Below are positions 3,203 to 35,687 of a stretch of 41,166 bases of DNA, one piece after another (within the stretch, counting starts at the first letter, position 1; every line of letters starts with the position of its first letter). The notes beneath the pieces are model-generated. The model made no database searches and had not been told where the DNA came from. It saw only the letters and a program-made list of their open reading frames with translations. The DNA comes from a virus. The stretch is from positions 1 through 41,166 of the IMG/VR virus record IMGVR_UViG_3300031673_000163. One strand, 5' to 3'. The translations under genes were made by a program, and so were the position numbers.

Positions 3203-5023
3203 TTGTTTAAATTAGAAGACCTTTGGAAAGTGTGGAACCTCTTAAAGGGTGAAACCGTTGACGATTTAAGTAAAGCTCTTGAGTCAATTGCGAAATCAGA
3301 ACAAGCTAAATCTACAACTTTCTTTAACACGACTTTAAACCAGTTTGCTTATTCTTCAAATGACTACACTAGATTGAAGAGTTTTATAATCGACTGGTAT
3401 GCATCAATGAAAAGCCTTTTATCGACACAAGCTCAAGCATCCGACCCGTTTTCTCTTCCTGACTCACATCTAAATGAACTATTCAAATCTTTTGGATACC
3501 CATACCCGACAGATCTAACTACTCAAAGTAATGATGTAAATACAACAAAAGTAAACTTTTTTCTTGATCTTGTAAACCTTTATAAAATTAAAGGAACACC
3601 GGCTTCTATAATTTCAGCATTACAATATTATGGACTAAAAGACATTGATATATATGAATTCTGGTTAAAAATGAATCCATCTGGCAACCCATATTTCTTA
3701 GGAGAATGGACCGCAGGAACAACAACAGTAAAAACACCTTATGAAATTCCATTCGCTTCAATGATAGCTAACGATCCTCACTGGCTTATGACACAAAGTC
3801 AAGTAAAAGCACTTCATGCATCAAATAAAATTAATCTTCCTTCGAGAAGTCCATATTTTGCAATGAGACCAAAGCATGAAATAGGTGTTGTAGTAGCAAT
3901 TGTAGAAAGGATTTTGCAAGATGAATATATTAGTTGGGTAGCTTCTAGTGATAAATCTCAATGGCTTATTGATCATCAAGAAGCTGGAATAACATCTGTG
4001 GGTACTGAAAATTCACTTCTAGAACTGTATCTATCTTCATTATATATATTCAATGAAACTTATTCCGCGGGATTAATACCACCTTATCAATGGGATGGAA
4101 CAAGTTACAATTCTATAAATTTCTTTTGTTATGATGGAACTAAAACAAATTATACTGAAATAATAAATGATTACTATGATCTAATCAGCCGACCAGAAAC
4201 TAAGGATGAAAGAGAAGATAATATAGATATTTTAAATGACTTATACTCAAGGAATCAATCAACAAACTTCTTAATAAATAGACAAACCGCAGGACAAAAA
4301 CTTGAATTAGTAAACTCAGATTTAAAAGATCTTTTAGATGAAATAAAAATATCAGAAGAATTTCCTGGAGAATTATTACAATCTCTTCTTCAAGATCTGT
4401 GGACATGGACAAAAAATAATATCGGTCTTGGTTATTTAAACATCTTATATTTAATCCTTGGTGAATCAGCCTTTGTTTCACAACTAGGAAATGTTATAGA
4501 TTTTTTCAAACCATATCGAGCAAGATTACTTACTTTAGAACTTATAGAATTTAATAATCCTCTTACTGACTCAATATTATTATATGACGAAATATCAAAC
4601 ATTGATATTAGTGAAACTATTATAGATTGGGCAACCTGTGATAGTGTTCCGTGCTGTCCAAATTTAGATACTACTTGCGGTGGTCCTGACACATATTATT
4701 CAAGATTAACATATGACTGTGATTCTTATTACGATATCGGTGCTGCATGTGATAAAGATAATGTACAAATTGACATTACCGAAGAAATTCATGATATCTT
4801 TATTTGTCTTCCTGATGGTACATCTTGTATAGATAATTATTATTTGACAGACGATTATTATCAAGACTCAACTGCTGGTGGTATTGTAACTGATTCAACA
4901 TCTTTGATTCTGGTTGTTGGAACATCAGGTGGATTCTGCGATTTCGATGATGAAGGGTCCTTTGACTGTCTAAGTGGAGCAGATGTTTGTCAAATATATT
5001 TAGGCCCTGTTGACTCAACATAA
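3203..5023 (+). CDS. Baseplate/tail protein, P2 gpI-like N-terminal half, Cys-rich C-terminus
   Basis: A 606-residue protein. The start is TTG, chosen because GGAG lies 8 bases upstream and the reading frame has no better start. Residues about 60-160 resemble the tail protein I family of contractile-tail phages: a helical region followed by a short motif around YKIKGTPASI. GpI-type proteins sit at the baseplate periphery and help attach tail fibres. The C-terminal ~120 residues are unusual, with about a dozen Cys (including CC and CxxC) among Asp, Tyr and Ser. That is odd for a phage structural protein and suggests disulfides or metal binding. The family call rests on the N-terminal half. Confidence 0.7.
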   Translation: MFKLEDLWKVWNLLKGETVDDLSKALESIAKSEQAKSTTFFNTTLNQFAYSSNDYTRLKSFIIDWYASMKSLLSTQAQASDPFSLPDSHLNELFKSFGYPYPTDLTTQSNDVNTTKVNFFLDLVNLYKIKGTPASIISALQYYGLKDIDIYEFWLKMNPSGNPYFLGEWTAGTTTVKTPYEIPFASMIANDPHWLMTQSQVKALHASNKINLPSRSPYFAMRPKHEIGVVVAIVERILQDEYISWVASSDKSQWLIDHQEAGITSVGTENSLLELYLSSLYIFNETYSAGLIPPYQWDGTSYNSINFFCYDGTKTNYTEIINDYYDLISRPETKDEREDNIDILNDLYSRNQSTNFLINRQTAGQKLELVNSDLKDLLDEIKISEEFPGELLQSLLQDLWTWTKNNIGLGYLNILYLILGESAFVSQLGNVIDFFKPYRARLLTLELIEFNNPLTDSILLYDEISNIDISETIIDWATCDSVPCCPNLDTTCGGPDTYYSRLTYDCDSYYDIGAACDKDNVQIDITEEIHDIFICLPDGTSCIDNYYLTDDYYQDSTAGGIVTDSTSLILVVGTSGGFCDFDDEGSFDCLSGADVCQIYLGPVDST

Positions 5024-6423: not shown

Positions 6424-7293
6424 ATGAAAAAATTAAATATAAAGCATATAAAAGAAATTTTAAAAACTGAAAGTTATGAACTATTATCAGAATATAAAAA
6501 TAATTATACACCAATATTTTTACAGTGTCCTAAAGGTCATAAATTTAGCATAGTATGGGCAAATTACCAACAAGGTATTCGTTGTAAAAAATGTTATTTC
6601 AATAAAAAAAGAAAATCAATTGATTATATCAAAAAATATCTAAAAAGAGAGAAATACATATTTCTTGATAAAGATTATATTAATAATTACACTAAATTTA
6701 AAATTGAGTGTCCAGAAGGTCATATCTATATAACAAATTGGAATGGTTTTCAACGAGGATTTAGATGTAAAAAATGTTATCATAATAGAACAAAGAAAAC
6801 TATAGAAGAAATTAATAACCATATAGAGAAACTTGGTTATAAATGGATATCGGGTACATATAAAAGTACCTTTTCAAAATTAACTATGGAGTGTCCTCAG
6901 GGTCATATTTTTACTACAAGAATTGATAATTTATTATATAGTTCATACTTATGCCCAGAATGTACTAAAATCAAAAGATCACTTAATATGATGGGAGAAA
7001 AGAATTGGGCATGGAATAACGGTAGTTCATTCGAACCATACTGTCCAATATGGACTGATCAAGAATTTAAAAAATCAATCAAAGAAAGAGACGGTAATAT
7101 TTGTCTAAATCCTTATTGTTTCAAACAATGTAAAATATTAAGTATTCATCATATTGATCATAATAAAAAAAATTGTCATCCATCAAATTTGATCACTCTT
7201 TGTAATTCTTGTAATTCTCTTGCTAACAAAGATAGAGAATGGCATAAATTATGGTATCAAACTATAATACAAAAAAAATATAAATATAAATAA
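6424..7293 (+). CDS. HNH endonuclease with three zinc-ribbon repeats
   Basis: A 289-residue protein. Three successive modules of about 50 residues each contain a CP-x-GH pair followed by CxxC (for example CPKGHKF then CKKC, CPEGHIY then CKKC, CPQGHIF then CPEC); these are probable zinc ribbons that read DNA. The C-terminal HNH nuclease (about 225-275) has CLNPYC, ILSIHHIDHNKKN and CNSCN. It starts only three bases after the metallophosphoesterase stop, with no ribosome binding site visible, so translation probably depends on coupling. It resembles a free-standing homing endonuclease inserted at the end of the operon, just before the terminator hairpin. Confidence 0.8.
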   Translation: MKKLNIKHIKEILKTESYELLSEYKNNYTPIFLQCPKGHKFSIVWANYQQGIRCKKCYFNKKRKSIDYIKKYLKREKYIFLDKDYINNYTKFKIECPEGHIYITNWNGFQRGFRCKKCYHNRTKKTIEEINNHIEKLGYKWISGTYKSTFSKLTMECPQGHIFTTRIDNLLYSSYLCPECTKIKRSLNMMGEKNWAWNNGSSFEPYCPIWTDQEFKKSIKERDGNICLNPYCFKQCKILSIHHIDHNKKNCHPSNLITLCNSCNSLANKDREWHKLWYQTIIQKKYKYK

Positions 7294-22871: not shown

Positions 22872-23585
22872 ATGAAATATTCATTCTCAGAGTTAGGCCA
22901 AAACATCCTTACTCGTAAATTCGGCGGAACTACTGTAGGAGTTGCCGACCCTTATACTACTGGTTATCATTTTATATGGTTTGAAAGAATTCCAGTAGGA
23001 ATAGTTGAATACACTAAACTCGGAATTAGTGGAATTTCACAAACTTCTGAAATTCAAAATATTTTAGCCGCTTCCTGTTTATCTGTTACACCTCCCGGTG
23101 GAACTTTAAATAAAACAGAGTTTACAGGACTTGGTGGTGTAAAATGGGCAGTGCCATCTAATGTGGATTATGGAAATACTGTTTCTATTAAATTTCTAGA
23201 GTTCAACAAGACACCTATTCTAGATATTATGCATAGTTGGGTTAAAATGATTAGAGATTATAGAACTGGTGTTACTGACTTGGTAGATAATGATGATGGT
23301 AGCGGTTATACAAAAGCCACATATGCTGGTTTAATGTATTACTGGACAACAGCACCAGATGCAAAAACAATAGAATATTATGCATGTTATGATGGAATGT
23401 TCCCAGCAAAAGACCCACAGGACTTATATTCAAGTGATGTAGAAACAGTCGGAAGACTGGACGTTGAAATTGAATTTAATATTGACTATGCTTGGCATGA
23501 ACCATGGGTAAGAACAAAGTGTCAAACATTCGCAGAAACATTTTATTCAGCAAAAGATATAATTAAAGCCTATGGTACAAAGTAA
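22872..23585 (+). CDS. Tail tube protein (probable)
   Basis: A 237-residue protein with features of contractile-tail tube proteins: a long strand region, then FLEFNKTPILDIMHSW (a helix that lines the tube subunit in this family), followed by an acidic loop. A late segment contains YDGMFPAKDPQDL and VEIEFNIDYAW, the pattern T4 gp19-like tubes use for their last strands. Tube rings stack to form the channel for DNA, inside the sheath. The gene is followed by the Cys-rich family and a gp26-like gene, in the position where tail assembly chaperones occur. The call is by pattern, not alignment. Confidence 0.6.
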   Translation: MKYSFSELGQNILTRKFGGTTVGVADPYTTGYHFIWFERIPVGIVEYTKLGISGISQTSEIQNILAASCLSVTPPGGTLNKTEFTGLGGVKWAVPSNVDYGNTVSIKFLEFNKTPILDIMHSWVKMIRDYRTGVTDLVDNDDGSGYTKATYAGLMYYWTTAPDAKTIEYYACYDGMFPAKDPQDLYSSDVETVGRLDVEIEFNIDYAWHEPWVRTKCQTFAETFYSAKDIIKAYGTK

Positions 23586-23642: not shown

Positions 23643-23882
23643 ATGAACATCAATAACTTAAAAATAACTTGTGGCGAGATCATTGTTAACGCAAAGTTGA
23701 CGAAAGAATCTAAACTGCAACTTTTAAATTTTGTACAAGTAGAGGCTGATGAACACCAACTAAAAGTATTTTTACTTGATGGTGAAATTATAACAAAATC
23801 AGATGACGAAGCAAAAGAAATCATTGATCAACGATTTGAACAATCAAAGTTTCATTCTTATTTTTTAGCGAAAGCCCAGTAG
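23643..23882 (+). CDS. Cys-rich helical family protein, N-terminal half (0 frame)
   Basis: Seventy-nine residues with an AAGGAG RBS. The segment SKLQLLNFVQVEADEHQLKV and the following FLLDGEII match the starts of the proteins at 24225 and 34998, defining a paralogous family. Here the frame ends early. The missing second half, with the family's Cys pattern, is encoded in the -1 frame directly after (to 24211). A canonical slippery heptamer lies 15 bases before the stop codon. The product is either a short regulatory form plus a fused long form made by frameshifting, or a gene broken by a one-base change. Confidence 0.65.
   Translation: MNINNLKITCGEIIVNAKLTKESKLQLLNFVQVEADEHQLKVFLLDGEIITKSDDEAKEIIDQRFEQSKFHSYFLAKAQ
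23861..23867 (+). promoter_or_regulatory. Candidate -1 ribosomal frameshift site U_UUU_UUA
   Basis: The heptamer T TTT TTA is in the correct phase (TAT-TTT-TTA-GCG). Slipping back one base joins the two halves into a 189-residue protein, close to its paralogs (174 and 197). Six bases downstream, GCCCAG (23874-23879) can pair exactly with CTGGGC (23920-23925). A competing local hairpin pairs TGCTCAG (23908-23914) with CTGGGCA (23920-23926). Confidence 0.55.
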
Positions 23883-24211
23883 GCATTATTTCAGGAATGT
23901 CTGTATTTGCTCAGCCAACCTGGGCAGCTTGGAGAGGGTTAAAAGGTTTGCATAATAAAAAAACTATACAATGTAAATCCATTACAAACTCAAAGAAAAA
24001 ACGTTTATGTTTAGATTCTGCTAATACTGAACTTTATCATAAAGAATTAGAAATTATAAAACGAGTTATTTCTCAAGATTGTCCTCAAAATAAAAATGAA
24101 GATCTTTGTAAAAAGAAAGGACAAAACGCAATTAATAATGTACAACAAAAATTAGTAAGATTATTAAACAGATCAAAACAAAGACGATTAAAGGGATTGT
24201 ATAGATATTAA
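23867..24211 (+). CDS. Cys-rich helical family protein, C-terminal half (-1 frame)
   Basis: The -1 frame, entered by slipping at 23861-23867, encodes about 114 residues. A hydrophobic stretch (SPVGIISGMSVFAQ) comes first, then a basic helical region with four Cys spaced C-x11-C-x23-C-x8-C. The paralog at 34998 has C-x12-C-x22-C-x8-C with matching residues between, so this is the second half of the same fold. The only ATG near the start (23897) has an unsuitable CAGGA directly against it, so independent initiation is poorly supported. The role is unknown; the place after the tail tube is where assembly chaperones usually lie. Confidence 0.6.
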   Translation, partial: SESPVGIISGMSVFAQPTWAAWRGLKGLHNKKTIQCKSITNSKKKRLCLDSANTELYHKELEIIKRVISQDCPQNKNEDLCKKKGQNAINNVQQKLVRLLNRSKQRRLKGLYRY

Positions 24212-24224
24212 GGAGATTATTACA

Positions 24225-24749
24225 ATGGATAGAAAAGAGTTACAACTATTATCAATGTATATAGTTAGTGAGTCAGATAAATCAAAATTATCAAAATTAC
24301 AATTACTAAATTTTGTAATGGAAGCCTCAGAACATCAATTAATGACTTTTATTTTAGATGACCAAATTATAAAAACTGACGAGATAAGTGAGCAAATAAT
24401 AGAAGCAAGATTCAAAGTTATGGAAGCTGGAGGTAGAGTTGCTAAATTGAGGAAATCATATTCAAGTTTAACAGGTGTAGGATTTCCAGTTATGTGGTCT
24501 CTATATAGAAAAATAAGATCTATATACGATGTGTGTACCAAACGATGCGGCAAATTTGAAGTTAATACTTCAAGACGACAACATTGTATGCTTAAATGTA
24601 AAGTTGAAAAACATAAAGCTCAACTTGTTGCTGCTAAAAAAGCAAAAAATGATAAAGAAACTCAAAAGGCTAAAACAAACCTTATGAAAGCTAATGCTGC
24701 TCTTCAAAAATCAATAGCTTCATTTAAATCTCGTGGAGCGGAAGAATAA
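24225..24749 (+). CDS. Cys-rich helical family protein, second member (174 aa)
   Basis: Starts 13 bases after the previous frame with AAGGAG. Residues about 22-50 (LSKLQLLNFVMEASEHQL, then FILDDQII) match the family motif shared with 23643 and 34998. A moderately hydrophobic stretch follows, then Cys in the arrangement CTKRC and CMLKC, and a Lys/Ala-rich C-terminal helix (about 125-165). It is intact in one frame, unlike its neighbour. Adjacent tandem placement suggests duplication. A tail-assembly or membrane-associated role is possible, but nothing decides. Confidence 0.6.
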   Translation: MDRKELQLLSMYIVSESDKSKLSKLQLLNFVMEASEHQLMTFILDDQIIKTDEISEQIIEARFKVMEAGGRVAKLRKSYSSLTGVGFPVMWSLYRKIRSIYDVCTKRCGKFEVNTSRRQHCMLKCKVEKHKAQLVAAKKAKNDKETQKAKTNLMKANAALQKSIASFKSRGAEE

Positions 24750-24799: not shown

Positions 24800-25591
24800 A
24801 TGCCATTTACAGGATTTAATGTAAAATATCCAGAATACGAGGTAATCACACCTCAAACAAAATTATCATTCAATGTTAGATCATTGAATGTACAAGAAGA
24901 AGAAAGATTAAAAGGAAGTCTGATGACTCCAACAAAGGTCACAGAACATTTAAATAAATGTATTTATGATTCTATTGTAGTTAAACCAGAAAGCATTCCT
25001 GATTATAATACATTTTTAAAAGTAGTTACATTAAAAGATCGTGATGCACTTCTATATGGACTTTACCATATTACTTACGAAGAAATAAGAAATTATGAAA
25101 TTAAATGCGGAATATGTGGAAAAAAATATCCGGTGACTGTTAAAGCATCAAGTACATTTAATTTTACTCCATACCCATTAGATAACATATTAACCAAAAA
25201 GAAAAAAGTTGAATTACCAGTTAGTACAGGAGTTTCAGCTTTTATAAAACAACCATCTCTACATGACGAAATGACCGCTATAAGAGAATTATCATCAAGA
25301 CCTGGAAGTTCAATTGATATAATTATAGAAACATTAATTATAGATAAATTTGAAGAAGATGTAGAAGCTAAAGCAGAATCTAAAATTTATAATGATCGAG
25401 TTGACATAATTGATGCTTATCTAACTCTTCCTGCAAAAGATAAAAGAGAAATACATAAACACTATTTAGAAGAGTTTGGAAAATATGGTATTGAACTTAA
25501 AATGAAAACATATTGTCCAGAGTGTTCACAAGAAGAAGAAATTGATATAGACTTGGTGGATAACTTTTTTCGAGCAGTGTATTCAGCATAA
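24800..25591 (+). CDS. T4 gp26-like baseplate hub / tail assembly protein with zinc ribbon
   Basis: A 263-residue protein. The N-terminal half (VRSLNVQEEERLKGS and later TLKDRDALLYGLYHITYEE) follows the pattern of T4-type gp26 baseplate hub proteins and related tail assembly chaperones. CGICG (about 103-107) and CPECS (about 244-248) form a four-Cys zinc site. It is followed by gp25-like and gp6-like baseplate genes, which supports the assignment. Near its end, DNFF is encoded by AAC-TTT-TTT, then CGA. In the +1 frame a further 67 codons are open, suggesting a longer frameshifted product. Confidence 0.65.
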   Translation: MPFTGFNVKYPEYEVITPQTKLSFNVRSLNVQEEERLKGSLMTPTKVTEHLNKCIYDSIVVKPESIPDYNTFLKVVTLKDRDALLYGLYHITYEEIRNYEIKCGICGKKYPVTVKASSTFNFTPYPLDNILTKKKKVELPVSTGVSAFIKQPSLHDEMTAIRELSSRPGSSIDIIIETLIIDKFEEDVEAKAESKIYNDRVDIIDAYLTLPAKDKREIHKHYLEEFGKYGIELKMKTYCPECSQEEEIDIDLVDNFFRAVYSA

Positions 25592-25775
25592 CGGCATATC
25601 TGAGTATAAACGTAATTTAGCCGAAAACATATATTCTTGCATGGAGTTGAGTAAACAATCATATGGAGAAACTATGTTTATGCCAGTTAAAAAATTTTAT
25701 GATTACTTAAAATGGAAGTCTGAGTTAGAAGAATCAAAACAAAAACAAATGCAAGAAGAAGCTGCGAGGAAGTAA
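25572..25775 (+). CDS. +1-frame extension of the gp26-like protein
   Basis: Sixty-seven codons in the +1 frame, open from 25551 and ending at a stop two bases before the gp25 ATG. The peptide (EQCIQHNGISEYKRNL, later MELSKQSYGE, MPVKKFYDYLKWKSEL) reads as a compact helical domain, and FF-x-x-h continuing into this frame looks natural. The candidate shift site is UUU_CGA at 25568-25573: tRNA-Phe can move from UUU to UUC while a slow Arg codon waits. A separate start at ATG 25674 (GGAG, 6 bases) would give only 33 residues and lose the first half. The fused product would be 324 residues. Confidence 0.5.
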   Translation, partial: EQCIQHNGISEYKRNLAENIYSCMELSKQSYGETMFMPVKKFYDYLKWKSELEESKQKQMQEEAARK

Positions 25776-34997: not shown

Positions 34998-35591
34998 CTA
35001 TTTTTTTTGAGATTTAACTTTTTCTTCTGCTTTCTTAATTTCGTTTTTTGCCGCTTCGATTTTCTTTTCTGTTTTATTAATCTCTAGTTTTACTTTTAAA
35101 TCACATTCTTTTGGATCTTTTGCTTTATTACATAATGAAATTTTATCTTTTAAAAACTTTAGTTTTTCCTCATAAGCATCTAATCTTACATTTGCTGCAC
35201 ATAACTCAAATTCAGATTCAACATTTTTAAATTTAATGCATTTTCTATATTGCTTACTAACAGTAAGCATAAATACTTCTATAGCCATGCCTATAATTGC
35301 CATTGCTCCAACAATAGCTAAATATGCAATAAGTGTAGCAAGACCAGCAGCCCCAAGAACAAGTTCATTTAGTCTTTGCTCAACAATCTCTTTATGTTTA
35401 TTATTAGATTCTTGAATTGTTTGGTCAATATCAGACTCACTTATCATTCTTCCTGTTATTAATAAATGAAAAATTTGTTCTTTAGAAGCAGTTTCTACAA
35501 AATTCATTAACTCTATTTTTTCAGATTCATTAAGATTTGTTTGTTTAAGAATATAAATTAATGTCCCTATTTTCATATCTAATATTTTCAT
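34998..35591 (-). CDS. Cys-rich helical family protein, third member (197 aa)
   Basis: The ATG at 35591 (MKILDMKIG) is chosen because GGAGGAG lies 5-6 bases upstream; 21 upstream codons lack an RBS. Residues about 20-50 (ESEKIELMNFVETASKEQI) match the family motif in the genes at 23643 and 24225. Two adjoining hydrophobic segments (about 80-115) should span a membrane. The C-terminus has C-x12-C-x22-C-x8-C and a long Lys/Glu helix. The gene is directly upstream of the tape measure gene. The role is unknown; membrane association at assembly or at DNA injection is possible. Confidence 0.6.
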   Translation of the reverse strand: MKILDMKIGTLIYILKQTNLNESEKIELMNFVETASKEQIFHLLITGRMISESDIDQTIQESNNKHKEIVEQRLNELVLGAAGLATLIAYLAIVGAMAIIGMAIEVFMLTVSKQYRKCIKFKNVESEFELCAANVRLDAYEEKLKFLKDKISLCNKAKDPKECDLKVKLEINKTEKKIEAAKNEIKKAEEKVKSQKK

Positions 35592-35621
35592 TAGAACTCC
35601 TCCAAAAAAATAATCGTACCT

Positions 35622-35637
35622 TATGTATATTTGTTCT
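35622..35637 (-). promoter_or_regulatory. Candidate promoter element (AGAACAAATATACATA)
   Basis: A looser minus-strand variant of the AGAACAWATTATAAA element, about 30 bases upstream of the chosen start of the third Cys-rich-family gene. Confidence 0.3.
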
Positions 35638-35687
35638 ATATTATTCACTATCATAAATAAAAGATGGGATTGTTTCTTATATTCCTA

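Follow-up and report, generated by a model that had tools for sequence, protein, structure and literature searches.

The analysed stretch of DNA (the window) is a 41,166-bp fragment of an uncultured T4-like virus, in which PHROG and Pfam matches identify T4-like tail genes for the sheath, the tube, gp26-like, gp25-like and gp6-like proteins and the tape measure. Homing endonuclease-like ORFs, judged by eye from the ORF list, lie amid the tail genes at 1489-2559 and 6424-7293. Downstream of the tube-like gene is a gene divided between two reading frames. The features of this gene and its surroundings are as follows:

22872-23585, plus strand: tail tube-like gene (PHROG 21400, 45), upstream of the split gene
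23643-23882, plus strand: 0-frame ORF of 79 aa ending at a TAG stop, encoding the helical N-domain of a tube-adjacent Cys-rich family (short product; N-domain HMM)
23861-23867, plus strand: slippery heptamer T_TTT_TTA, in phase, retained in contigs L002-L005
23867-24211, plus strand: -1 half, with a hydrophobic segment and a Cys domain (family C-domain HMM, L243 alignment)
23874-23925, plus strand: possible stimulatory stem-loop, with outer stem 23874-23879/23920-23925 and inner hairpin 23880-23887/23896-23903
23880-23882, plus strand: 0-frame stop TAG, 12 nt past the heptamer, conserved in L002-L005
23897-23899, plus strand: first -1-frame ATG past the stop, conserved, without a usable SD
24225-24749, plus strand: continuous paralogue of 174 aa, with the N-domain and a Cys domain of the C-x3-C-x12-C-x3-C type
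24800-25591, plus strand: T4 gp26-like gene (PF12322; profile matches), probable TAC-N
25565-25775, plus strand: predicted +1 site UUU UUU CGA (25565-25573) and +1-frame extension, probable TAC-C
34998-35654, minus strand: third paralogue, also in one continuous frame, immediately upstream of the tape measure gene

The 23643 ORF is preceded by an SD sequence, AAGGAG. A sequence-only reading of the window had placed the end of the 0-frame ORF at 23882, the rest of the family fold in the -1 frame, and the heptamer T_TTT_TTA in phase at 23861-23867, and all these positions are correct. The -1 frame is free of stops from 23840 up to the stop codon at 24209-24211, and the joined frames are predicted to give a product of 189 aa, the length originally given. 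The Cys spacings counted in that reading are also right, both for the -1 half (C-x11-C-x23-C-x8-C) and for the paralogue at 34998 (12, 22 and 8).

About 300 loci, many of them overlapping, were gathered via searches with the tube, the gp26-like gene and the family, and HMMs were made for the family N-domain and for the C-terminal Cys domain. Within the family, the Cys residues are most often spaced C-x10-C-x22-C-x8-C, and a second type is C-x3-C-x12-C-x3-C. Against the C-domain HMM (54 other members, the window left out), the -1 half has an E-value of 1.1e-13, and wrong-frame controls gave much poorer scores. The joined 189-aa protein is 37% identical (E 7e-38) to a continuous 181-aa ORF of another virus, L243:1560-2105, and the alignment is gapless at the junction, with FEQSKFHSYFL/SESPVGIISGM in the window (the slash marks the junction) and FEASKINENLLVEGPVGSIMGM in L243. 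This alignment takes in SPVGIISGM, encoded downstream of the heptamer and ahead of the internal ATG, and on this comparison the heptamer-to-ATG stretch (ESPVGIISG) is conserved family sequence. The C-domain match and the gapless alignment uphold the initial claim that the two halves belong together: by homology, the 0-frame and -1 halves encode one family protein.

In-phase X_XXY_YYZ heptamers occur at 1.2% of codon positions in this genome, and the chance of finding one in an overlap of such size is 8-14% (3-5% for a homopolymeric one). The heptamer by itself is therefore weak evidence, and the case rests, at the level of sequence, on homology across the junction and on the conserved break. 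The heptamer, the frame break and the stop are also present in four further IMG/VR contigs (L002-L005), two of them near-identical to the window (at least 99% protein identity) and two diverged (81% protein and 84% DNA identity); thus, a sequencing error does not explain the break. For the -1 half past the 0-frame stop, neutral change was simulated and compared with the differences between the lineages: 24 nonsynonymous codons were observed versus 33 expected and no stops versus 4.5 expected (P < 2e-4), and the dN/dS of the -1 half is 0.43. These values indicate that the -1 half is under purifying selection, which together with the conserved break argues that the break is neither an assembly error nor young decay. 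Both lineages also share 39 identical nt after the heptamer, a run that is suggestive only (P 0.08 under uniform placement and 0.27 for the synonymous run).

In a tree of 107 family members, the window-clade pair groups with L243 as its sister (support 0.83), nested among continuous members, and hence the break is derived in the window clade. The comparison of homologues proposed in the sequence-only reading finds the heptamer and the break kept in two lineages (84% nt identity) and in none outside the clade. This confinement counts against a -1 frameshift, as the nearest other relatives are continuous; those relatives are, however, distant (30-39% identity) and hence not the close continuous relatives without a heptamer that had been named as contrary evidence. 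The alternative of a recent one-base deletion is disfavoured by retention of the break in the diverged lineage, yet the break is derived with respect to continuous homologues. A fixed loss-of-function frameshift, with only the N-domain still of importance and the C half left to decay, would agree with a derived break, with the common occurrence of N-only paralogues and with the presence of two other continuous paralogues in the same virus. We nevertheless consider it very unlikely, since the C half has been under purifying selection since the split and contains no stop and no further indel at 84% nt identity.

Short N-only ORFs constitute 25 of the 168 unique N-domain ORFs and, among them, only those of the window clade and L064 have both an in-phase heptamer and a -1 continuation whose Cys motif is of the family type. 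In L064, a single record, A_AAA_AAG marks a break at this same boundary between the domains; the -1 ORF reaches over the start of the following gene before it ends, and the -1 half on its own is only weakly similar to the family. A 9-bp hairpin at L064:2540-2600 (z -3.2) holds both the heptamer and the 0-frame stop inside its loop; it was given no weight as a downstream stimulator, because it encloses the slippery site rather than lying downstream of it. Another relative, L164, has a short form without an extension and, given also the share of short ORFs, short forms are normal in the Cys-rich family. In 96 relatives, the interval between the tube and gp26-like genes holds anything from no gene to three Cys-family genes in tandem (70-500 aa), some of them N-only or C-only; in 10 of the 96, an N-only gene comes after a full-length one.

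The occurrence of N-only and C-only genes in relatives (L191, L214) means that two separate proteins could also function, which counts against a -1 frameshift. Two proteins would result if ribosomes stopped at TAG 23880 and a coupled re-initiation took place at ATG 23897, giving an N-only product of 79 aa and a C-only product of 104 aa; this ATG is conserved and, being 14 nt past the stop, lies inside the re-initiation range. However, the SD energy at ATG 23897 is -2.9 kcal/mol, compared with -8.4 kcal/mol at the neighbouring genes (23643, 24225, and 24800), and independent translation of the C half is therefore disfavoured. The C-only protein would moreover lack the conserved ESPVGIISG, and the first in-frame ATG of L064 is more than 40 nt from the stop and without an SD, so that re-initiation seems to us unlikely. 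Transcriptional slippage at the T6 run, instead of ribosomal slippage, would fit the homopolymers found at the two breaks (T6 in the window, A6 in L064). It is extremely improbable in our judgement, as the homopolymers sit exactly in the phase of the heptamer in both the window and L064, and six bases are few compared with the runs of nine A or T for which bacterial transcriptional slippage has been described (PMC5009743). With a poor internal start and a T6 run that is short for transcriptional slippage, -1 ribosomal slippage remains.

A downstream stem-loop is a possible stimulator of such slippage. Its outer stem pairs GCCCAG (23874-23879) with CTGGGC (23920-23925), separated from the heptamer by a spacer of 6 nt, and the nested hairpin has 8 bp. 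The energy of the proposed structure is -16.0 kcal/mol versus -16.3 kcal/mol for the window MFE, the MFE fold of L005 has this structure at its core, and the fold stability of the region is in the lowest 0.3-0.8% among 795 coding windows of this genome. Thus, the stem seen in the sequence-only reading holds as to position, spacer and strength relative to the genome, but it gains nothing from the shuffle and covariation tests: the RNA fold shows no excess stability over dinucleotide shuffles in the window or L005 (z 0.15 and -0.41, respectively), and no covariation in the stem was found between the lineages, whose differences sit at unpaired bases. No upstream SD-like stimulator is visible.

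We consider it likely that the locus is one gene in two frames, from which -1 programmed frameshifting makes two products, one short and one long. Most ribosomes would halt at TAG 23880, releasing the 79-aa protein with the helical N-domain only, and a fraction would slip back one base on U_UUU_UUA, perhaps helped by the stem-loop 6 nt downstream, bypass the TAG, and add the hydrophobic segment and the Cys domain to form the 189-aa protein. The break would have arisen in the window clade from a continuous gene, and one gene would now give the short and long products that several relatives encode as tandem genes. Both forms are predicted to be made, and we infer that the slippage is by the ribosome, that both products are used, and that they act in tail assembly or the virion, a role suggested by the location and the short-plus-long pattern. 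The programmed -1 frameshift first put forward in the sequence-only reading is the best explanation of the homology, the kept break, the selection and the absence of an internal SD; its stem was supported in part, and its link to tail assembly chaperones (TACs) was not. The -1 programmed frameshift of the locus is probably real, and this tail-operon family would have taken it up inside the window clade.

As to that link, neither half matched the TAC families of PHROG and Pfam, and the gp26-like gene at 24800-25591 is the probable TAC of the window. The gp26/gp51 pair has reportedly been taken as the T4 TAC pair by Vladimirov et al. 2022. This study is cited in PMC10885494 and PMC12846349. In 12 of 96 relatives, no member of the Cys-rich family was detected between the tube and the gp26-like gene. 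The idea that the family is generally tied to the tape measure gene was dropped, as none of five relatives has a member upstream of that gene. DNA and protein searches of INPHARED revealed no homologue of the split gene, the DNA matches being chance ones that cover 8% of the query, and a scan of genome contigs with the tube gave no match. The AlphaFold2 model of a continuous member is all helical (pLDDT 90.5) and has no match in PDB or BFVD at E <= 0.001; therefore, the fold gives no function.

The gp26-like gene is itself a strong candidate for programmed frameshifting, in this case +1, at UUU UUU CGN. A +1-frame ORF overlaps the end of this gene in 104 of 105 relatives; it adds 163-223 nt among the matches listed, and the C-terminal region that it encodes is conserved (CMEMskQSY...MPvKrF.dylKWK..LEeeKqK). 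FFR occurs in 104 sequences, in all of which the second Phe codon is UUU (versus 78% elsewhere in the same genes) and the following Arg codon is CGN (versus 19%), in counts that treat related sequences as independent; a single sequence, L039, has ACG after UUU UUU. A UUU codon followed by C would let tRNA-Phe shift +1 onto UUC. This signal is better conserved than the -1 signal of the Cys-rich gene, and we regard it as the stronger and broader finding of the two.

Tentatively, and with somewhat less than even confidence, we propose that two recoding sites with opposite signs, -1 in the Cys-rich gene and +1 in the gp26-like TAC, lie no more than 1.7 kb apart in the tail operon, that the Cys-rich family supplies a second component of assembly or of the virion, one needed in a short and a long form that tandem genes or frameshifting provide, and that frameshifting arose at least twice in it (at T_TTT_TTA and at A_AAA_AAG). 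Frameshifting would then have been taken up by a tail-operon family outside the TAC and, as relatives of the clade are still continuous or have tandem short and long genes, the step from separate genes to recoding would be directly comparable. The analysis also points to a +1 frameshift in the T4-type TAC, T4 being the noted exception to TAC frameshifting (PMC5009743).

The proposed -1 shift resembles that of lambda gpG/gpGT and P2 E/E', where one gene gives rise to both a short N form and a long NC form (PMC5009743), and where the slippery site likewise lies near the end of a short ORF past the tube gene. The split gene differs from gpG/gpGT in that it belongs to a Cys-rich family that has no TAC match, is not universal in the group and occurs in up to three copies, and in that the window genome has a separate gp26-like TAC candidate. 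The frameshift site of E. coli dnaX is A_AAA_AAG, the same heptamer that is found in phase in the L064 member; however, the protein is a different one and no upstream SD stimulator is visible. In Bacillus phage AR9 (L237), the gp26 homologue gp230 (end at 3346) is instead extended by 227 nt in the -1 frame, and the annotation lists this extension as a gene of its own, gp229. In T4, which has two genes here, gp26 adjoins gp25, as the gp26 homologue of the window does. The gp26 homologue is next door but one to the split gene, whose short-plus-long logic would be that of T4 gp26/gp51, although the Cys-rich family itself is neither gp26 nor gp51. Whereas the T4 TAC consists of separate genes, the gp26 homologue of the window group seems to rely on a +1 shift.
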